Assembly: GCF_013343235.1 (NCBI RefSeq)
Contig: NZ_CP040094.1
Location: 2,232,501-2,296,500, forward strand
Source of the DNA: Nostoc sp. TCL240-02
GTDB taxonomy: Bacteria; Cyanobacteriota; Cyanobacteriia; Cyanobacteriales; Nostocaceae
Length of the DNA stretch: 64,000 nt
Direction of reading: 5' to 3'
The translations under genes and the position numbers were made by a program. Under the pieces are notes generated by a model, which searched no databases, was not told where the DNA came from, and saw nothing but the letters and a program-made list of their open reading frames with translations. Of the stretch, positions 7,193-18,858 are shown piece by piece (within the stretch, counting starts at the first letter, position 1; each line of letters opens with the position of its first letter).

Positions 7193-8386
7193 CTATGAAT
7201 AAAAGTTGGGTTTTGGCAGTTCATCATTTAACGCCCACTTTCCTATATCTTGGATTTTGTAATCTACTGGATCGTGCAGAGTGAACGTGCGGAGATTACG
7301 CCAATAACGGTCAAAGCCATATTTTGCACTAGTAGCGCGTGCGCCCATAACTTCAAATATCCGGTTGGTAATGTCTAAACCGACTTTAGTAGCAAAAACT
7401 TTGGCAGTAGCAACCAAAAGCGCACATTCTCCGCGTTGTTCAGAGGTAAGTGACCATTCCTGCTCCCAAGCTGCTTGTAGTAATTCTCCCGCCTGTTCAG
7501 TTAGATACACTGCTGCTTGGAGATCAACCCAGATTTTGCCATAGTGCTGAAGGATGTAAGGATCTTGGGTTGCACTCTCTACACCTGATGTCAGCCAAGG
7601 TTTGGTATTAGTGGAAGTATATGTTTTAGCAGCTTCAAATGCTCCCTGTGCAATTCCCAGGTAGATATTAGCAAGATTCAATTGAGTTAAGCAGGTGCGA
7701 ATAGTTTTGAAAGGTTGGCTGGGTTTGTCTCTACTACCAAGAATTTCTTCATGGTATACCAACACATTCTCAAAAGTAACACTACCACTATCTGTTTGGC
7801 GTTGCCCCATATTATTCCAATCATGATGAACTGTAACGCCTTGCCGTTGAGTGGGAATTGCCAGAATATTCAATTCACCAGTTTCTTGATGAATCGCACC
7901 GATTGGCAATATATCTGAATCTTGAGAGCCAGAGCAAAAGCTTTTAATCCCATTCAGACGGAAATAATCATTTTCTGCTGTCAAAGTAGTTCTTTTATCC
8001 AAAGGGTTGAGGGCATTGCACCAAAACCAATTGTTGTGAATAGTTTCTGAATAATATCGCTGTTTCTGCTCTGCCGAACCAAAGATATGAGGAATAACTA
8101 CACCTAAATGGTGGTAAGAAAAGACGTGAGCAATAGAACTATCAACCTTGGCAAACTCGCGGGTAATTTGCAGAACAGTAATCCAGCTTTGCCCTAAACC
8201 ACCGTACTCTTTAGGTATAATTAGTCTCAATAAGTTGCTTTGACGCAAGCGATCGCGTTCATGCTTTGGCGTTCCCCCTTGGGCATCCCGCTCTACAGCA
8301 GTTTGGGCAAATTCCTTTGCTAAAGACTTAGCTAAATCAAGATAATTTTGAGATTCTTCAGTTTCGATTAATTGCATATTTTGCAA
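7193..8386 (-). CDS. Acyl-CoA-dehydrogenase-fold flavoprotein, SfnB type (copy 1)
   Basis: 397 residues with the acyl-CoA dehydrogenase fold: an N-terminal helical domain with IPKEYGGLGQSW, a middle beta domain (NNMGQRQTDSGSVTFENV) and a C-terminal helical domain ending LRTFTLHDPVDYKIQDIG. The LHDPV...K ending is typical of SfnB/DszC-like proteins linked to sulfone and sulfonate use rather than fatty acid oxidation. The family binds FMN or FAD and may act as a monooxygenase or desulfurization partner. A second copy lies at 12218-13426. Its promoter must lie in the long AT-rich gap to the divergent porin gene. Confidence 0.82.
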   Translation of the reverse strand: MQNMQLIETEESQNYLDLAKSLAKEFAQTAVERDAQGGTPKHERDRLRQSNLLRLIIPKEYGGLGQSWITVLQITREFAKVDSSIAHVFSYHHLGVVIPHIFGSAEQKQRYYSETIHNNWFWCNALNPLDKRTTLTAENDYFRLNGIKSFCSGSQDSDILPIGAIHQETGELNILAIPTQRQGVTVHHDWNNMGQRQTDSGSVTFENVLVYHEEILGSRDKPSQPFKTIRTCLTQLNLANIYLGIAQGAFEAAKTYTSTNTKPWLTSGVESATQDPYILQHYGKIWVDLQAAVYLTEQAGELLQAAWEQEWSLTSEQRGECALLVATAKVFATKVGLDITNRIFEVMGARATSAKYGFDRYWRNLRTFTLHDPVDYKIQDIGKWALNDELPKPNFYS

Positions 8387-11000: not shown

Positions 11001-12053
11001 CTAATGTCCTTCACGATTCAAGCTTAGGGGTTGCTGTTCTTCAACTAGTGGCGGTACATCCTGCCAAAGGCTAATTCCGTCGTATAATCCTGGAGCCATT
11101 AAGAATACTTGAACCCAAAGGATATTAAACCACCAGTAAAGCCCTTGGATAATATTTTCCTGACCTACTATAGATACTGTCACCAAGTAAAACAAGACCG
11201 AAATTATTAAACTTGCGACAGATGCAACAATGCCTTTTGTGGGCTGTGATAGCTCTGTGAAAGGCCACATATTGAATTGCCAAACAAATCCTAAACCAAC
11301 GGTTGTCCAAATAGCTGCAAAGGTTGGGCCTGTTGTTGTTGTAAATAAATCTAGTCCTAGCTGTTTGAGAAACAATTCTGTAATCAGAGTAAGTAACAAA
11401 ATAATACCTGTATGGAGTAACCCCAAACGTGGCATTCCTAGTTCCAATTTGCTTAACGGCCAACGTTCAAAGAAACTACCGAACACTGTTGAACAAGGAT
11501 ACCAATACCAAGGAATATAAAACGGTTGAAGTCCCCACATTTGCGGTAAAAATGTGAGGGCAGGGGCAATAAAGAAGACGGCAAAAAAGATATTGAGAAA
11601 ACCGCTCACTGGATGCCAGTTGCGTACTTCCTCAGTGGTGACAATCGTATTGTCAAAGAAGAATAAACTGGCGGCGGCGGCAATGATTGCTGTTTGTCCC
11701 CACAAACCTACAGATGTATCAGTAAGAATTTGTTTTGCAGAAATGAATTTCCAAGCTTCTCCAGTAATGTAAACTAGCGCTAATAGCATTACTAAATTTA
11801 CTGTTCCTCTTCCAAATCGGGTGGAGGAAAAGCGCGAACCTGGATAGCCGTTGAGGGAAAAACCGAGATGCCACCACCAGACGAAGCATATCGTGATGTA
11901 AGTCAATTTTGTTCCTACATTTAGCTGAATAATTTGACCAAAAATTAGTTCAAAAATATAGCTAATGACAGCAATCACAGCAATAAAAAGCAGCCCCTTA
12001 AATGGCTGATTTTTCCAAATGCTCCGCCTCTGAATTGGATTTGCAACACTCAT
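11001..12053 (-). CDS. Multi-pass membrane protein of unknown family in the sulfur island
   Basis: 350 residues with about ten hydrophobic segments (roughly 20-42, 50-66, 83-103, 114-137, 147-170, 178-197, 209-228, 236-262, 272-296, 304-327). It is rich in tryptophan (for example CFVWWWHLGF and FYIPWYWYP) and I do not recognise the family. The cluster has no SsuBC-type ABC permease or ATPase, so this protein is a candidate importer of the sulfur substrate, or a membrane partner of it. It lies 164 bases downstream of the second SfnB gene on the same strand and may share its transcript. Confidence 0.7.
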   Translation of the reverse strand: MSVANPIQRRSIWKNQPFKGLLFIAVIAVISYIFELIFGQIIQLNVGTKLTYITICFVWWWHLGFSLNGYPGSRFSSTRFGRGTVNLVMLLALVYITGEAWKFISAKQILTDTSVGLWGQTAIIAAAASLFFFDNTIVTTEEVRNWHPVSGFLNIFFAVFFIAPALTFLPQMWGLQPFYIPWYWYPCSTVFGSFFERWPLSKLELGMPRLGLLHTGIILLLTLITELFLKQLGLDLFTTTTGPTFAAIWTTVGLGFVWQFNMWPFTELSQPTKGIVASVASLIISVLFYLVTVSIVGQENIIQGLYWWFNILWVQVFLMAPGLYDGISLWQDVPPLVEEQQPLSLNREGH

Positions 12054-12217: not shown

Positions 12218-13426
12218 TTACAGCCAAGGATGGCGCGGAGGGTAGACACCATTGAGGAAGTAGTTACCAACAGCGTAGTATTTCCAGCGCACGGGATCGT
12301 GGAGTGTATGAGCGCGGGCATTTCGCCAGTGGCGATTGTAGTTGAATTCTTCCAATGTGGACTTAGTACCTGCTAGTTCAAACAACTTATTGGTAGCTAG
12401 TAATGCTGCTTCGGTTGCTAGTGCTTTGGCTTCAGCAACTGCGATCGATGCTTCAACTACCTTGGGTTCTTCTAAACCTGACTCGTTGGCGATGTCAAGA
12501 AATTCGCCTGCACGCCGCAGCAATGCTTCTGAAGCGTGAACTTGGATTTGCACATTGCCTAAGTTATAGAGCGTTAGAGGATCTTCGTAGCCTTTTTCTA
12601 AATTGCTGTCAACCCAAGGGCGAGTATATTTGCGGACAAAGTGGATGGTGTCACGGACTGCGGCTTTGGCAATCCCTACGTCTACGGCGGCTTGGATGAT
12701 TTGCGCGATCGCACCCATTGGTGTAGCCCGCTCAAAGGCTAAGTAGTGCGGTATGACGTGTTCTGCCTTAACTTTCACATTTTCAATAATGGTAGTGCCG
12801 CTAGCAGTGGTACGCTGTCCGAAGCTTGTCCAGTCATCGAGTAGGGTTAGTCCTTCTGCATCTCTTTCGACAAATGCCACCACTGTTTTACCATCTGTAT
12901 TGCTAGCAATGACGGGAACCCAATGTGCCAGTAATGCTCCAGCAGAGTAATATTTGCGTCCGTTAAGTACGAAGTCAGATCCATCTGGTGTTAACTTTGT
13001 CTGCACATCAGTAACAGACTTAGTGCCAATTTCTGAGAAGGCGTTACCAAAGCGTTTACCTTGTAGAGCCAAATCAAAGAAGAACTTCTTCTGAGCGTCA
13101 GTGCCATCCAACCGAACTGCTTCCACCATATAGAGGTGGTTTTGGGGAATTTGACCGAGGCTAGAATCGGCTTCGGAGATGATTTTAATTACTTCTGCAA
13201 GGGTGGCACTCGATACAAAAGCACCGCCATACTCTTTAGGAACTGTAATCCCCCACAATCCACTCTGGGAGAACTTTTGCACTTCCTCAGCAGGCAAACG
13301 CCGATTTTGGTCGCGTTCTGAGTCGCCTATGGCAAACTCAGCTGCTAGTTCGTGAGCGATCGCGATCGCTTCTTTATCATCCCGAATAATATGTGCCTTC
13401 TGTTCTGTATTAATTACTGATGTCAT
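12218..13426 (-). CDS. sfnB: Acyl-CoA-dehydrogenase-fold flavoprotein, SfnB type (copy 2)
   Basis: 402 residues, clear SfnB-type member: IPQNHLYMVEA and VPKEYGGAFVSSATLAEV in the N-terminal half, SFGQRTTASGTTIIENV in the middle beta domain, and the C-terminal RNARAHTLHDPVRWKYYAVG. In pseudomonads SfnB accompanies the dimethylsulfone monooxygenase SfnG; the exact reaction is uncertain. It lies 201 bases downstream of sfnG on the same strand. It is similar to, but clearly diverged from, the copy at 7193-8386, so the island holds two paralogues rather than a recent duplication. Confidence 0.85.
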   Translation of the reverse strand: MTSVINTEQKAHIIRDDKEAIAIAHELAAEFAIGDSERDQNRRLPAEEVQKFSQSGLWGITVPKEYGGAFVSSATLAEVIKIISEADSSLGQIPQNHLYMVEAVRLDGTDAQKKFFFDLALQGKRFGNAFSEIGTKSVTDVQTKLTPDGSDFVLNGRKYYSAGALLAHWVPVIASNTDGKTVVAFVERDAEGLTLLDDWTSFGQRTTASGTTIIENVKVKAEHVIPHYLAFERATPMGAIAQIIQAAVDVGIAKAAVRDTIHFVRKYTRPWVDSNLEKGYEDPLTLYNLGNVQIQVHASEALLRRAGEFLDIANESGLEEPKVVEASIAVAEAKALATEAALLATNKLFELAGTKSTLEEFNYNRHWRNARAHTLHDPVRWKYYAVGNYFLNGVYPPRHPWL

Positions 13427-13627: not shown

Positions 13628-14725
13628 CTACACCCTAACCAACTCATCAGCTGTCCGACGATTAGCTTTAAGTTCGCGCACAATCGGAATTACTGTCTTA
13701 CCAAATGCTGGCAAATCATCCGAGTAGTGCAAGAAGCCACCGAGAATTAAATCGACTCCCGCTTCATGAAACTGGCGAATCTTTTCAGCTACTTGTTCAG
13801 CAGTGCCAATTAAGCCTGAACGGAAGCCATCGTTATATTGCACCAAGTCTTCAAAATTGGAATTCGCCCACATTCCCTGACGTTCACGAGTAGAAGCTCC
13901 CGCCTGTTTCACTGCTTCACCAAATCCTTTCACCGCCTCTACATCGGCTTGGGTAATAATATCGCGCAAAACTTCATGGGCTTCTGCTTCCGTATCTCGC
14001 ACGATGATAAAGGAATTCAGACCAAACTTAATTTTGCGTCCTTCAAGACTCGCTAATGCAGACACTTCTTCAATCTGCTCTCGCACCCCTTCTATGGTAT
14101 TGCCATTCATGAAATACCAATCAGAGACGCGGCCAGCCATCCGCCGCGCTGCCTTGGAGTTACCACCTTGGAATATCTCCGGGTGTGGATTCTGATTAAC
14201 TGGTTTAGGCTTCACCCAACCGCCATTAATCCGGTAAAAGTCGCCTTTAAAGTGAAACTCATCCTCAGTCCACAAACCTTTGAGAACGCGGATAAATTCT
14301 TCTGAACGACGATAGCGTTCGTCATGGTCTAACCAATGTTCACCATATATAGTGAATTCATCTTTGAACCAACCGCTAACTACATTCAGAGCGAAGCGTC
14401 CGTTAGAAAGGAAATCGATGCTGGCTCCCATTTTGGCAACTACTCCCGGATGCCATAATCCAGGATGAACTGCTGCAATTAGCTTTAATTTCTTAGTGAC
14501 AGGAGCCAGGGCTGACACGGTTGTTAATGCCTCTAACTGGTACTCAGCGCCATAGCTGGCGATAAATCTGGCTTGTGCTAGAGCATATTCAAACCCAACT
14601 TCTTCAGCCGTCTGAGCTAGTTGAGCATTATATTCATAAGTCCAATCTGTGCGTTGGGGAATTTTACTAACAACTAACCCACCACTAACATTAGGAATCC
14701 AGTATGCGAATTTAATATCTACCAT
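13628..14725 (-). CDS. sfnG: FMNH2-dependent dimethylsulfone monooxygenase SfnG
   Basis: 365 residues, a bacterial luciferase-like TIM-barrel monooxygenase. The sequence fits SfnG: FAYWIPNVSGGLVVSKIPQR at the N-terminus, NVVSGWFKDEF, EHWLDHDERYRRSEEF, and the EIFQGGNSKAARRMAG phosphate-binding region. SfnG converts dimethylsulfone to methanesulfinate using reduced FMN from a separate reductase, in the cytoplasm, releasing sulfur under sulfate limitation. No flavin reductase gene is in the window. First gene of the sfnG - sfnB - membrane protein run. Control probably comes from the intergenic region shared with the divergent SsuD-like gene and its fused regulator. Confidence 0.9.
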   Translation of the reverse strand: MVDIKFAYWIPNVSGGLVVSKIPQRTDWTYEYNAQLAQTAEEVGFEYALAQARFIASYGAEYQLEALTTVSALAPVTKKLKLIAAVHPGLWHPGVVAKMGASIDFLSNGRFALNVVSGWFKDEFTIYGEHWLDHDERYRRSEEFIRVLKGLWTEDEFHFKGDFYRINGGWVKPKPVNQNPHPEIFQGGNSKAARRMAGRVSDWYFMNGNTIEGVREQIEEVSALASLEGRKIKFGLNSFIIVRDTEAEAHEVLRDIITQADVEAVKGFGEAVKQAGASTRERQGMWANSNFEDLVQYNDGFRSGLIGTAEQVAEKIRQFHEAGVDLILGGFLHYSDDLPAFGKTVIPIVRELKANRRTADELVRV

Positions 14726-14864
14726 AATTGTGCGTTTGTAATTGAAACTGCTTGGTTATAAGAGAAGGCAGGAGGAAGTAGAGAAGGGAAGTAAGATTTA
14801 AAGCCTCTGTCCTTTCAGGCTATGGTGTAGACACAAGTTTTCTAGAGTTGCCTTATATGCTTTT

Positions 14865-14942
14865 AATCCCCCCAACCCCCCTTAAAAAGGGAGGCAAAAG
14901 CTTCTTAAAGTCCCCCTTTTTAAGGGGGATTTAGGGGGATCT
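14865..14942. repeat. Palindromic C/G-rich repeat element
   Basis: The left half, ATCCCCCCAACCCCCC then TTAAAAAGGGAGG, is matched in inverted form by CCCCCTTTTTAAGGGGGA then TTAGGGGGATCT. The ~78-base unit can fold as one long imperfect hairpin, a common dispersed element in Nostoc. It lies 140 bases upstream of sfnG. Confidence 0.7.
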
Positions 14943-15100
14943 CCAATGATTTTGGGTTTGTACAGAGATGTGTGTACACCGTAGACTTTGAGGAGAGAGG
15001 TCAAAGTATATTGCATCCAAGCGAGAATGATAGGGTAAAATCGAAAGCTTGAGAGCGGCTAGAAACCACTCTGAGTTTACAAGTAGACAATTTCAGATTC

Positions 15101-15122
15101 TTATGGTCGTAATATACCATAA
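15101..15122. promoter_or_regulatory. Candidate LysR operator 1
   Basis: TTATGGT-N8-ACCATAA is a perfect 7-bp inverted repeat in the sfnG/SsuD-like divergent region, and its inner part ATGGT...ACCAT fits the T-N11-A shape favoured by LysR proteins. A LysR-type regulator is encoded just downstream. Binding is inferred. Confidence 0.4.
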
Positions 15123-15215
15123 GCCGACTGAACTACCGTAGTTTTTGATGAATCAGACTTTATCACGAGAATTTTTCTGATGTCGTGACTCAATATACTT
15201 AAATTCCATTTCCAT

Positions 15216-15230
15216 ATTCCATTTTGGAAT
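15216..15230. promoter_or_regulatory. Candidate LysR operator 2
   Basis: ATTCCATTTTGGAAT is a 6-bp inverted repeat with a 3-base spacer. It is repeated in part by neighbouring ATTCCATTTCCATATTCC and by CTATTCCATATCG near 15325, suggesting clustered sites. Its use as an operator is inferred from position only. Confidence 0.35.
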
Positions 15231-15368
15231 ACTGGCCAATTTTGCTGAGTTTTATATTTGCTGCTTATCAACCTGATTCATTCAGAGCAACCAGAAATCA
15301 GGACTCAACTAAGTTTCGATACTATTCCATATCGTGATAAGCAACTGTACACAACAGAAATAAATGTG

Positions 15369-15412
15369 GTAGTGTGAACTACTAAACTACGGTAAAAAGA
15401 TATGCGTATAGT
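15369..15412 (+). promoter_or_regulatory. NtcA-type promoter candidate
   Basis: GTA-N8-TAC at 15369-15382 fits the NtcA consensus, and TATAGT at 15407-15412, 24 bases further, fits the TAN3T -10 box expected of an NtcA-activated promoter. It points to the SsuD-like gene at 15704, but an inverted-repeat element lies in between. A chance match is possible in AT-rich DNA. Confidence 0.4.
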
Positions 15413-15442
15413 AGTTTATTGAATGTCTCTTGAAGAAGAATT

Positions 15443-15672
15443 CAGAAGTCAGAATTCAGGAGTCAGAATTAAGACGCTCGTCCCTCGCTACCGCTACGCT
15501 ATCAGTCGGGGATTCAGACCCACGACTGAATTGTTGCACCACCAAATCTACGATTTGGTGGGGGTGCAAAAACTCCGGTTATTCAGACGCTCGCGGACTC
15601 GCTAACGCTGCGCTATCCGCTTTTTCATTCAGAAAACATTGCTGAATTCTGACTCCTGACTCCTGAATTCTG
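15443..15672. repeat. Inverted-repeat element (MITE-like), about 230 bp
   Basis: Left end CAGAATTCAGGAGTCAGAATT (about 15450-15470) and right end GAATTCTGACTCCTGACTCC (about 15643-15662) are inverted copies. The inside carries a strong hairpin (15534-15569: TTGCACCACCAAATC / GATTTGGTGGGGGTGCAA) and GC-rich pieces shared with other intergenic repeats. It separates the candidate promoter from the SsuD-like gene and ends about 30 bases before its start codon. Confidence 0.7.
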
Positions 15673-15703
15673 TTTGGTAAAAAAAGGCACAGGAAAAAGA
15701 TTT

Positions 15704-16753
15704 ATGGCACTTCAGTTTGGAATTTGGTCGCCTGTTTGTGGTGGATGGTTGCGAGTTGTCAACCATGAGGCTAATTTATCCGCTCAAGATTTGGTGAAGC
15801 TGGCAGTTCAGGCAGACGAGTTAGGTTATGACTTCTATTACATTCCTGAACATTACTTAAATGCAGTTCATGGGCCTAACTATAATGTCGCTGATGCTTG
15901 GATTACAGCAGCTTTAGCAAGTTTGAACACCAAGAATATCAAGATTGTTGCGGCTGTACAACCTGGTTTTAAATTGCCTGCGGTTATTGCCAAGCTGAGT
16001 GCAAACATTCAAAATCAACTTAGTAACGGCAGATTTGCTCTGAGTGGTATTGCAGGTTGGTGGAAATTAGAAGTAGAAAGCTATGGAGATATCTGGCTAC
16101 CCCATAGCGATCGCTATGCGCGATTAGAAGAGTACATTGATGTAATTAAGGGACTATGGACAGTCGAAGACTTTAATTACGTTGGCAAATACTACAATAT
16201 TACAGGTGGTATTCTCCCAGATAAGCCGACACTAACACCACCTATTTTCATTGCTGGCGAATCAGCTCGGGCAATTGACTTAGCGGCTCGTCAGGGAGAT
16301 TATCTCTTTATCAATGCAGATGAACCTGAAAAAACGGCTGCATTGGTGGAGAAAGTGAAAAGATTGGCTAGCGATCGCTACCAGCGTAATATTAAAGTAG
16401 GGATGAGTGCGTTTGCGATCGTTCGGGAACATACCGCTCAAGCCGAAGCCAGATTACAAGCGATTTATCGTTCTGCGGATGAGCCGCAGATTAACTACTT
16501 TCAAGAACAAATCGATCCTAACGTAGTTGCCCACAACAAACTAGATATCAGTCAAACCATTGAAGCTAACCTTGGTTTATCTGCTCAACTCGTTGGCGAT
16601 CGCTATACAATTATTCAACGCCTGAAAGAATACGAAGCCGTTGGCGTTGACTTAATAGTACTCAAATTTGAATCTATGTTGGAAGACACTATTCGCTTCC
16701 ACAATTTAGTGATTTCCGAATATGCACAGCAGAATAGCTTAATTCCGTTGTAA
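15704..16753 (+). CDS. LLM-class FMNH2-dependent monooxygenase, SsuD/SfnG-like
   Basis: 349 residues from the ATG at 15704, which follows AGGAAAAAGA and gives the expected start MALQFGIWSP; the upstream TTG at 15674 would add residues encoded partly by a repeat element. Luciferase-like fold: YIPEHYLNAVHGPNYN, a core strand with IVAAVQPGFKLPAVIAKL, GIAGWWKLEVESYGD, and IFIAGESARAIDLAARQGDY. Like alkanesulfonate monooxygenase SsuD it probably cleaves a C-S bond with reduced FMN and oxygen to give sulfite and an aldehyde; the substrate is unknown. It is divergent from sfnG and 23 bases upstream of the fused regulator. Confidence 0.87.
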   Translation: MALQFGIWSPVCGGWLRVVNHEANLSAQDLVKLAVQADELGYDFYYIPEHYLNAVHGPNYNVADAWITAALASLNTKNIKIVAAVQPGFKLPAVIAKLSANIQNQLSNGRFALSGIAGWWKLEVESYGDIWLPHSDRYARLEEYIDVIKGLWTVEDFNYVGKYYNITGGILPDKPTLTPPIFIAGESARAIDLAARQGDYLFINADEPEKTAALVEKVKRLASDRYQRNIKVGMSAFAIVREHTAQAEARLQAIYRSADEPQINYFQEQIDPNVVAHNKLDISQTIEANLGLSAQLVGDRYTIIQRLKEYEAVGVDLIVLKFESMLEDTIRFHNLVISEYAQQNSLIPL

Positions 16754-16776
16754 TTAAAAATCTTGCCCTACCTAGC

Positions 16777-18858
16777 ATGAATAAGATTAAACTCGAAGAT
16801 ATTACCCTAAACCACATCAAAATTTTAAAAGCAGTAGATGACTGTGGTAGCTTCTCTAAAGCAGCCCAAAAATTAGGGTATAGTCAAGCATTAATTAGTA
16901 AAAAAGTCAAACAAATAGAAAATTATTTCGGAGTAATTCTCCTAAATCGCTCTCCTGGCTCTATAAGTTTGACTAATAAAGGCAAGAAATTGATTTCCCA
17001 GACATTTAATGTAGTAGAAACTGTAGAAAATCTGCAAGAAGAATTTCAGGCAACATTTAGCGCTGAAGGCGAAGATTTGATATTGGGATCTACTAGTTTA
17101 ATTTTAGAAGTCTGGCTCAAACAATATTTACAGCGATTTCAACTTTGTTTTGCAGGCAGAAATATCAAAGAGATTGCGATTAAAGATAGCAGATTTTTTT
17201 CTAATTCTCAACTCATAGAAATGGATCTCCTGCTCAACAGTTGCGCTGGATATAAGGAAGAACACCACTGTACTAGATTAACAACTCATAGAATGCTGTT
17301 GGTTTCCTTTGGCGCAAGTAAATATTTAAATCAGTATAGTTTAGTTGAAATAAATGATATTGATTTGGCTGATATTGTGCTTCTAGATGAGGTTCATCAA
17401 GAACTATCTAAAAATAAATATTTGAGGAACAAATTAAGTGGCGTACAAGTACTACAAAGTTATCAAGATATTCTAATCTATGCTTCAGAAAATCAAAAAA
17501 TAACCATTTTACCTGACTTTTGTCAAGCTGAGATAATATCTCAATACGAAGTTTTAATTCTTCCTATTCAAGATGTTAATGAATATGGGATTTATCTGCA
17601 TGTTCCTCGCTTTAGCGAGTTGTTAATATCCGCAGAAGGTTTGGTGAGAAGTTTTAGACTCGATCAAGACAATTTGGAAAGCTTGCCTAATATAAACCTA
17701 ATTTTAGGTAGCTATTCTCCCAAAGAGAAAAATATTCTTAGAATAGGTGTTCAGAAAGATTCCATAGGACAGTTTATTGCTGGATATGGGACTAAGTATA
17801 TTTCTGATTTACAGAGAGCATCTTTATCACTTGAACAGCCTGTTTTAAAAAATATTGAAATCAATCGAAATTTTGAGTTACAAATTCTACCCTTTGACTC
17901 TGGGGAACAAATGAATCGGCAGATGAAACGCAAAGAACTAGATATTTGTATTTTAGATGATATTTCTCTCTTGAATAATGGTAGCCAATTCTTTGATGAT
18001 TTAAGTTTTGGTTCTAAATTAATAGGAATTGCTTCATATAACCTTTTAGGTCAAGATATAAATATTATTTTACATAAAGATTCTTCTATAAAGACTGTTT
18101 CGGATCTGAAAGGAAAACGAATTTCCACCTTATTTGGTTCTAATGCTCATAGGTTCATTATCACTCTTTTTGACCTCTATAATATGGATGTCAGTAAAAA
18201 TTGCAGATTAGTAAATGAAGATCCTCGTAAAGCAAGTAAGAGTTTGGCAAATAAAACTATAGATGCTTACGTGTGTTGTCATACTTTTGCCTCAATTTTA
18301 GAAGCTTATGCTTTTGTCAAAAAGCTGCCTTTATCTCAAACAATTAGTTTAAGAATTCCATCAATCAGAGGAATTGTTTGTCGTTCACAGTTCATTAAAG
18401 AAAACCCTAAAATTGTAGTTGCTTATTTACACGATCTAGTAGTTGCTAACTATTGGTTTAATTCATCTCCAATTAAGGCAGCAGATTTATTAACTAAAGT
18501 GATTGATGTGAGAAAAACTCAAGTAAATCAGTTTTTTAATCCTGTATTTGGCAACCGCATCGATCCCACCCTCAAACCTCAATGGTCTTGGTTACTCAAA
18601 ACTTTAAATCGTAGGTTGGAAGGAAAATATGGTATTTCACTATTTGATGTAGATTTTTGGATCGATGATTATTTTTTAAGACTTGTCTACAATCTGCTGA
18701 ATCTAGATTATCACTTTCACCAAGTTTCTTTTGCAAGTGAATTTTCTAGCAGCTATTTTGTCGAGGAGCAGTTTAACCGACATATAAAAGTTCTCTATGA
18801 TAAATACGATTTACCCTTGCAAAATGAAGATAGCAACTACACAGCAATATCCTTGTAG
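16777..18858 (+). CDS. Fusion regulator: LysR-type protein joined to an SsuA-like binding domain
   Basis: 693 residues, about twice the length of a normal LysR regulator. Residues 1-65 are a LysR winged helix (LNHIKILKAVDDCGSFSKAAQKL..., SQALISKKVKQIENYFGVIL). About 90-300 resemble the LysR effector domain (LILGSTSLILEVWL... ITILPDFCQAEII). From about 328 (ILRIGVQKDSIG) to 600 it matches the SsuA/NMT1 class of ABC substrate-binding proteins: IILHKDSSIKTVSDLKGKRI, GSNAH, NEDPRKASKSLANKTIDAY, SQFIKENPKIVVAYLHDLVV. The end is helical. There is no signal peptide, so the binding domain should be cytoplasmic. Placed 23 bases after the SsuD-like gene, it likely senses an organosulfur ligand and controls the island. 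Confidence 0.85.
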   Translation: MNKIKLEDITLNHIKILKAVDDCGSFSKAAQKLGYSQALISKKVKQIENYFGVILLNRSPGSISLTNKGKKLISQTFNVVETVENLQEEFQATFSAEGEDLILGSTSLILEVWLKQYLQRFQLCFAGRNIKEIAIKDSRFFSNSQLIEMDLLLNSCAGYKEEHHCTRLTTHRMLLVSFGASKYLNQYSLVEINDIDLADIVLLDEVHQELSKNKYLRNKLSGVQVLQSYQDILIYASENQKITILPDFCQAEIISQYEVLILPIQDVNEYGIYLHVPRFSELLISAEGLVRSFRLDQDNLESLPNINLILGSYSPKEKNILRIGVQKDSIGQFIAGYGTKYISDLQRASLSLEQPVLKNIEINRNFELQILPFDSGEQMNRQMKRKELDICILDDISLLNNGSQFFDDLSFGSKLIGIASYNLLGQDINIILHKDSSIKTVSDLKGKRISTLFGSNAHRFIITLFDLYNMDVSKNCRLVNEDPRKASKSLANKTIDAYVCCHTFASILEAYAFVKKLPLSQTISLRIPSIRGIVCRSQFIKENPKIVVAYLHDLVVANYWFNSSPIKAADLLTKVIDVRKTQVNQFFNPVFGNRIDPTLKPQWSWLLKTLNRRLEGKYGISLFDVDFWIDDYFLRLVYNLLNLDYHFHQVSFASEFSSSYFVEEQFNRHIKVLYDKYDLPLQNEDSNYTAISL

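Follow-up and report, generated by a model that had tools for sequence, protein, structure and literature searches.

A LysR protein with a fused cytoplasmic SsuA-type binding domain as a probable local regulator of organosulfur genes in cyanobacteria

LysR proteins form a very large family of bacterial regulators, thought of as one DNA-binding domain plus one sensor domain, and CysB and Cbl are the sulfur regulators of this type. Here we describe a 693-residue protein of Nostoc sp. TCL240-02 in which a LysR regulator is fused to a substrate-binding domain of the SsuA/NMT1 type (subfamily A hereafter). Bacteria usually employ such domains extracellularly, to capture sulfur compounds for uptake. 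It is encoded by one open reading frame (ORF), 16777..18858 (+), in a 64,000-nucleotide stretch of contig NZ_CP040094.1 that we call the window. We give a probability of about 0.6 to the reading that this protein is a local LysR regulator of the surrounding organosulfur cluster, acting through two boxes, with the cytoplasmic SsuA-type domain as the sensor and the effector domain mainly as a scaffold. With CbnR, BenM and OxyR it shares the winged helix-turn-helix (HTH), the linker helix, the effector fold, a TAT-N11-ATA box and a divergent promoter, but it differs from them in the extra SsuA-type domain and in an effector domain that has diverged so far that PF03466 misses it in 28 of 37 members. 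With the substrate-binding proteins (SBPs) SsuA, TauA and NMT1 it shares the fold, the glutamine of the sulfonate site and the GSxxH loop; unlike them, it has no signal peptide, is joined to a DNA-binding protein, carries Asp in place of Gly86 and has no ATP-binding cassette (ABC) partner beside its gene in the window. The nearest free relatives of its binding half are SBPs with a NosL domain, which belong to an ABC transporter encoded beside an AprA-like flavoprotein, a ferredoxin and a HEAT protein; in contrast to the fusion regulator they are secreted, carry the NosL domain and are transport subunits.

Two further systems are close in function. The cyanobacterial ABC ATPases CmpC and NrtC also have C-terminal regulatory domains, but these are fused to an ABC ATPase and act on transport, not transcription. 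In CmpC, of which NrtC is a relative, a cytoplasmic SBP-like domain is the presumed solute sensor (PMC11349869, in excerpt); because CmpC already uses such a domain, a sensor reading of the fusion is plausible and any claim to novelty is limited. SfnR, which controls dimethylsulfone genes in Pseudomonas putida as the sigma54-dependent regulator of sfnFG (PMC13352529, in excerpt), is a sigma54-dependent activator and not a LysR protein. Literature searches for the LysR-SsuA architecture, with most subscription papers outside their coverage, returned no description, which agrees with an earlier note on this DNA that knew of no such family, although the name that JGI assigns automatically to some of the members already joins both halves.

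The limits of the protein and its domains were drawn from the ORF, a cluster survey and structure models, in which both halves adopt the expected folds. A winged HTH (residues 8-70; 16798..16986, +; PF00126 E 1e-16), found in 37 of 37 aligned members, is followed by a predicted linker helix (67-93; 16975..17055, +), a divergent LysR effector domain (98-300; 17068..17676, +) whose LysR_substrate fold is intact in the model, a variable inter-domain linker that is the least conserved stretch (301-318; 17677..17730, +), and a binding domain of the SsuA/NMT1 type (about 319-651; 17731..18729, +) modelled as a full two-lobe, type-2 SBP. A predicted C-terminal helix (645-676; 18709..18804, +) starts before the binding domain ends, and its model confidence (predicted local distance difference test, pLDDT) falls below 50 from about residue 661. 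At E<=0.01, HTH_1 matches 37 of the 37 members, NMT1 35 and LysR_substrate 9; the SsuA_fam profile gives the binding half 67.2 bits, which is below its curated cut-off of 163.5. No hydrophobic segment was found in the fusion regulator, which argues against export or membrane anchoring, and the binding domain is internal, behind the HTH and without an export signal; a search for an ABC ATPase domain gave no Pfam match at E<=1. The architecture read from the sequence in the earlier note, a LysR regulator with a cytoplasmic SsuA/NMT1-type domain, is thus confirmed, and a role in sensing rather than transport is the likeliest reading of a domain without a signal peptide fused behind an HTH.

The fusion is real and conserved. 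A protein search with the window protein returned at least 111 clusters at E<=0.001 and a profile search at least 113, the 7999 candidates with the most shared words being scored each time; among the 113 clusters listed, 106 are of 600-713 residues and 7 are shorter pieces. All clusters with an organism name are cyanobacterial (Nostoc, Aulosira, Egbenema, Elainellaceae, Leptolyngbya, Phormidesmis, Synechococcaceae and others), and the domain order is constant down to 44-50% identity with the window protein. The survey in other cyanobacteria proposed in the earlier note recovers the same layout, again with organosulfur neighbours. Occurrence is patchy: the gene was found in 5 of 386 genomes drawn from the phylum, in 13 of 388 drawn from the order (one with a C-terminal remnant only) and, with a distant query, in 10 of 388 drawn from the class, the three draws overlapping; the window genome has a single copy. 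A plasmid search with the window protein gave 398 matching records, none covering 80% of it. A remnant of about 121 C-terminal residues lies beside a heme oxygenase gene in three loci (L022:4241-4606, L035:1489-1854 and L043:1540-1905), and a full copy on another contig than the remnant in genome G376 hints at relocation of the cluster.

Conservation differs strongly between domains. Among 35 aligned members (two truncated rows left out), the HTH and residues 601-675 both have a mean top-residue frequency of 0.81, residues 319-600 have 0.68, the effector domain 0.56 and the linker 0.30; segment 601-675, where 47% of columns reach 95% or more, is together with the HTH the most conserved, and the effector domain rises to 0.77 in its final part (266-300). 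Mean pairwise identity is 0.44 for the effector and 0.57 for the binding domain. The ratio of nonsynonymous to synonymous substitution rates (dN/dS) between the window gene and six relatives is 0.07-0.12 for the HTH, 0.16-0.30 for 71-300 and 0.02-0.05 for 601-675 (in each of these two, one value saturated and five used), 0.09-0.16 for 319-600, and 0.18-0.51 for the short junction 301-318. Conservation, dN/dS and the Pfam match counts together indicate that the effector domain is retained as a fold, yet is the fastest-drifting domain.

A distantly related LysR protein with the same layout exists in other cyanobacteria. A plasmid search with an SBP+NosL protein led to LysR fusions of 678 residues in Leptolyngbya sp. 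BL0902 and 666 residues in Pseudanabaena galeata, both with HTH_1 and a canonical effector (PF03466 E 2e-27 and 5e-27; two of two tested); their NMT1-type C-terminal half scores above cut-off in the former and below it in the latter. Five further fusions from 386 genomes bring this subfamily B to seven loci (L071:11313-13349, L072:12447-14447 and L080-L084), with the domain order of subfamily A, lengths of 652-678 residues and a sulfur-type locus. All seven are flanked on one side by a transporter (SBP+NosL-type protein, permease and ATPase) and on the other by an AprA-like flavoprotein, a ferredoxin and a HEAT-repeat protein, though L081 yielded no ORF for the ferredoxin. Subfamily B differs from A in its canonical PF03466 effector, its Gly at the Gly86 position, its neighbours and its lack of the subfamily A box. 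A 100/100 branch separates the binding halves of both subfamilies, together with the free SBPs, from nine SsuA-like proteins, for which the tree carries long-branch warnings. The best trees separate A and B, but a single A+B clade is not rejected (approximately unbiased test, p-AU 0.287 for the binding halves and 0.195 for the LysR halves). An inverted repeat, TTTAT-N6-ATAAA, precedes the AprA-like gene in five of the seven subfamily B promoters (L072, L080-L083) and is perhaps that subfamily's own operator.

Organosulfur genes surround the window gene. A gene for an SfnG-like flavin mononucleotide-dependent monooxygenase (15704..16753, +; TIGR04021 E 3.5e-60, 204 bits, under the cut-off of 383; backed by homologues) lies 23 nt upstream; a TTG at 15674 opens its frame, and 349-residue homologues suggest a start at ATG 15704. 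This pair is divergent from sfnG, encoding dimethylsulfone monooxygenase (13628..14725, -; TIGR04021 623 bits, cut-off 383), and sfnB, encoding a sulfur-acquisition oxidoreductase (12218..13426, -; TIGR04022 629 bits, cut-off 431). When neighbours within 5 kb were called by BLASTP at E<=1e-20, 32 of 34 loci had at least one gene of the SfnG, SfnB, SfnG-like, SsuD, SsuE or DmoA type, in agreement with the organosulfur setting proposed in the earlier note; L018 and L061 are one contig taken twice, as are L019 and L062, so the distinct loci number 30 of 32, and many are close Nostoc relatives. The exceptions are L015, whose contig stops 391 bp upstream, and L022, which holds the 121-residue remnant. 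In the distant relatives L058 and L060-L062 the operon is another one, though again of the organosulfur kind, and consists of a sodium symporter, a small membrane protein, the fusion regulator, SsuE and a DmoA-type monooxygenase; L044-L046 have SsuD in addition, and L063 an extra transporter with 27-40% identity to SsuA/B/C.

The divergent promoter holds T-N11-A dyad boxes, and both copies are of the TAT-N11-ATA kind, the usual form of LysR operators. One is the palindromic TATTCCATTTTGGAATA (TATTCCA-TTT-TGGAATA; 15215..15231), also present in the promoter alignment of Nostoc with L044-L046, and the other the composite TATTCCATATCGTGATA (15323..15339, +), matched across lineages and genomes; an operator region suggested earlier at 15101-15230 was close to these conserved boxes. 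The composite form has a best match with 0-1 mismatch in six of eight lineages, and the palindromic form is found at one mismatch in the other two, L061 and L063. In 200 shuffles per region, the better of the two scores was never equalled in any of the eight lineages. No composite site with one mismatch or fewer lies outside the promoter region in the window and seven other loci. About 40 random stretches of equal length per locus gave 0-1 mismatch once each in L044, L060 and L062 and twice in L058, draws that must have overlapped the promoter because these loci have no such site elsewhere. A wider scan took in 37 genomes, made up of all 19 in which the intact gene had been found and 18 lacking it, a remnant being present in one of the latter. 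All 12 occurrences of the exact composite lie about 0.2-3.1 kb upstream of the fusion gene, with none in the 18 genomes lacking the intact gene; allowing one mismatch gave 25 matches, 16 of them beside the gene (reversed control, 13). The gene-bearing genomes without a near match are G894, where the contig ends beside the gene, and G739 and G764, which have the palindromic form. The box is absent from the subfamily B promoters (5-7 mismatches in seven of seven). Of the three places in the 7.9-Mb window genome that match a looser pattern, TATTCCANNNYGNNATA, two are at this promoter; the third (G000:C1:5387876-5387892) falls within the terminal part of a 785-residue ORF in L068 and was taken as chance. 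A further inverted repeat, TCACGA-N14-TCGTGA, lies at 15163-15188, in the stretch that separates the sfnG start from the first box, and recurs with some changes in many Nostoc promoters. A sigma-70 promoter scan of 14726-16800 was uninformative (2 matches against a shuffled mean of 4.5).

Sulfonate is held by Gln36, Gly68, Gly86 and Ser141 in SsuA of X. citri (PMC3839906, in excerpt) and by Gln30, Gly61, Gly79 and Thr132 in TauA (PMC6906117, likewise in excerpt). A profile alignment places the SsuA residues at Gln326, Gly376, Asp394 and Asn456 of the fusion regulator. Gln326 (codon 17752..17754, +) is identical in all 37 members, as are two further residues of the sulfonate-site loops, Gly454 and His458, and the neighbouring Asn401, Gly402 and Arg459; Ser/Thr455 is kept in 36 of 37. 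The Gly376 position is G in 32, A in 2 and I, D or S in one each, and Asn456 (codon 18142..18144, +) is N in 32, H in 2, S in 2 and C in 1. Asp394 (codon 17956..17958, +), which replaces Gly86, is invariant in subfamily A; elsewhere this position is G in seven of seven subfamily B proteins, G in 16 and A in 1 of 17 free SBP+NosL proteins, and G in six and A in three of nine other SsuA-like proteins. This unvarying acid at the anion site marks out subfamily A. On sequence grounds it argues against a plain alkanesulfonate or other simple sulfonate as the ligand, the suggestion of the earlier note, but it is not decisive, because SsuA makes this contact through a main-chain NH. As Asp394 is invariant, uncharged or cationic methylated sulfur compounds (dimethylsulfone, dimethyl sulfoxide and the like) would be the candidates worth testing first, and the uncharged substrates of SfnG and DmoA would be the natural ones to begin with.

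Fold, fusion, conservation, neighbourhood and box are direct computations; beyond them, we infer box binding by the fusion protein, the direction of regulation, ligand binding in the SsuA half and a reduced role of the effector. The fusion protein would bind both TAT-N11-ATA boxes between sfnG-sfnB and the operon of the SfnG-like gene and the regulator, and would control both divergent arms and hence its own gene, since this sits in one of them. The sensor would most likely be the fused SsuA-type domain, its cleft closing on a small intracellular organosulfur compound, a substrate or intermediate of SfnG-, DmoA- or SsuD-type enzymes. The movement could be relayed through the conserved effector end (266-300) to the DNA-bound LysR core, which would then switch the divergent enzyme genes, while the old effector domain would serve mainly as scaffold and dimer interface.

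Several points weigh against this reading. The full-length model is of low confidence (mean pLDDT 68, predicted template modelling score 0.39), and the relative placement of the halves is not readable from it. The Gly86-to-Asp change may mean lost binding, and the effector of subfamily B also falls below its binding half (mean identity 0.50 against 0.57, compared with 0.43 against 0.59 in subfamily A), so this drift is not special to subfamily A. L061 and L063 have no close composite form, and 9 of the 25 one-mismatch matches lie away from the fusion gene. The looser pattern gives four strand matches in the window genome and its reversed control also four; 7 of 100 window shuffles equalled the number of matches with one mismatch allowed, which the real boxes do not need. 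It is location and conservation, not count, that support the box. Eight of the same loci served to derive the motif, and its fit is partly circular; the non-circular support is its absence from the seven subfamily B promoters and its placement in further genomes. A different regulator could be the one acting on the box, and the support for regulation by the fusion protein is computational throughout.

A two-input sensor, in which the effector would sense a metabolite of sulfate assimilation and the SsuA half an alkanesulfonate, is unlikely. The effector fold is intact in the model, the site keeps Gln326, Gly376 (32/37) and Ser/Thr455, and SsuD-type enzymes adjoin the gene in L019/L062 and L044-L046, but no other domain is as poorly conserved as the effector (mean pairwise identity 0.44; binding domain, 0.57), all 37 members have Asp at the Gly86 position, and a ligand in either site is purely presumed. 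The integration of sulfate status with organosulfur supply offered in the earlier note is not borne out by so poorly conserved an effector; the architecture and the sensor idea stand as the best reading, with sulfate-plus-sulfonate integration unproved. It is less likely still that the SsuA half binds no small molecule and serves oligomerisation or protein docking: segment 601-675 is conserved enough for an interface and one sulfonate-coordinating position is altered, but the fold is that of a full two-lobe SBP and the sulfonate-site loop residues are invariant among members only 43-50% identical to the window protein. LysR boxes are similar among regulators and the binding of this one by the fusion protein is read from sequence, so the box might be the operator of another regulator, such as a CysB-like global factor, with the fusion protein acting elsewhere; this is improbable, given that the exact composite occurs only upstream of the fusion gene in the 37 genomes and a global factor would be expected to have many sites. 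An enzyme of the same fold, a DszB-like desulfinase or Thi5-like synthase, is most improbable: Cys27 of DszB (mutated in 2de3), presumably the catalytic residue, falls on the invariant Gln326 if the ranges align without a gap, a register inferred from the range ends of the alignment, and that loop has no invariant Cys. Misassembly or a chance read-through of two genes, which the earlier note had envisaged near residue 310, has a negligible chance, and a misassembled junction is ruled out by conservation of the continuous ORF in many independent assemblies, single-contig chromosomes included.

Returning to the local regulator with an SsuA-type sensor, a broader evolutionary version would have a transport binding protein take over as the sensor of a LysR protein. 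The subfamily A effector would have decayed to a scaffold, the SsuA-clade domain, cytoplasmic and marked by its invariant Asp, would read an uncharged or cationic organosulfur compound, and such fusions would have been made more than once in cyanobacteria, each beside the pathway or transporter of the sensed compound. We regard this as doubtful, since the subfamily B effector is also less conserved than its binding half and the trees do not reject a single A+B clade.

Other genes of these loci deserve mention. A second SfnB/DszC-like flavin oxidoreductase is encoded at 7193..8386 (-; NF043015 E 1e-114 and TIGR04022 E 4e-92, both under cut-off), and its membership of the regulon is a guess. A sodium:solute symporter with a small membrane protein of 135-190 residues recurs (L018:2761-4873, L019:5953-7959, L012:2867-4994 and L063:12172-14232); three of the small proteins were compared with Pfam and none scored above cut-off, and the symporter and its partner are possibly a two-part uptake system for an organosulfur substrate. 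A conserved 350-residue membrane protein (11001-12053, -) without a significant Pfam match adjoins sfnB in the window and also in L004-L007, L010, L012, L014, L016, L020, L044, L045 and L047.

A built-in second domain of the transport type is a new layout for LysR proteins, and both its site and its operator can be tested. If the ligand is dimethylsulfone or a relative, the fusion protein would be a ready biosensor. In Nostoc punctiforme, a mutant of Npun_F5882, a putative alkanesulfonate monooxygenase, is deficient in feathermoss colonisation, for which its authors allow confounding factors (PMC7784912, in excerpt). Npun_F5882 may or may not belong to the cluster described here, and organosulfur regulation may matter for symbiosis. 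The fusion regulator offers a handle on how cyanobacteria regulate their use of organosulfur compounds.
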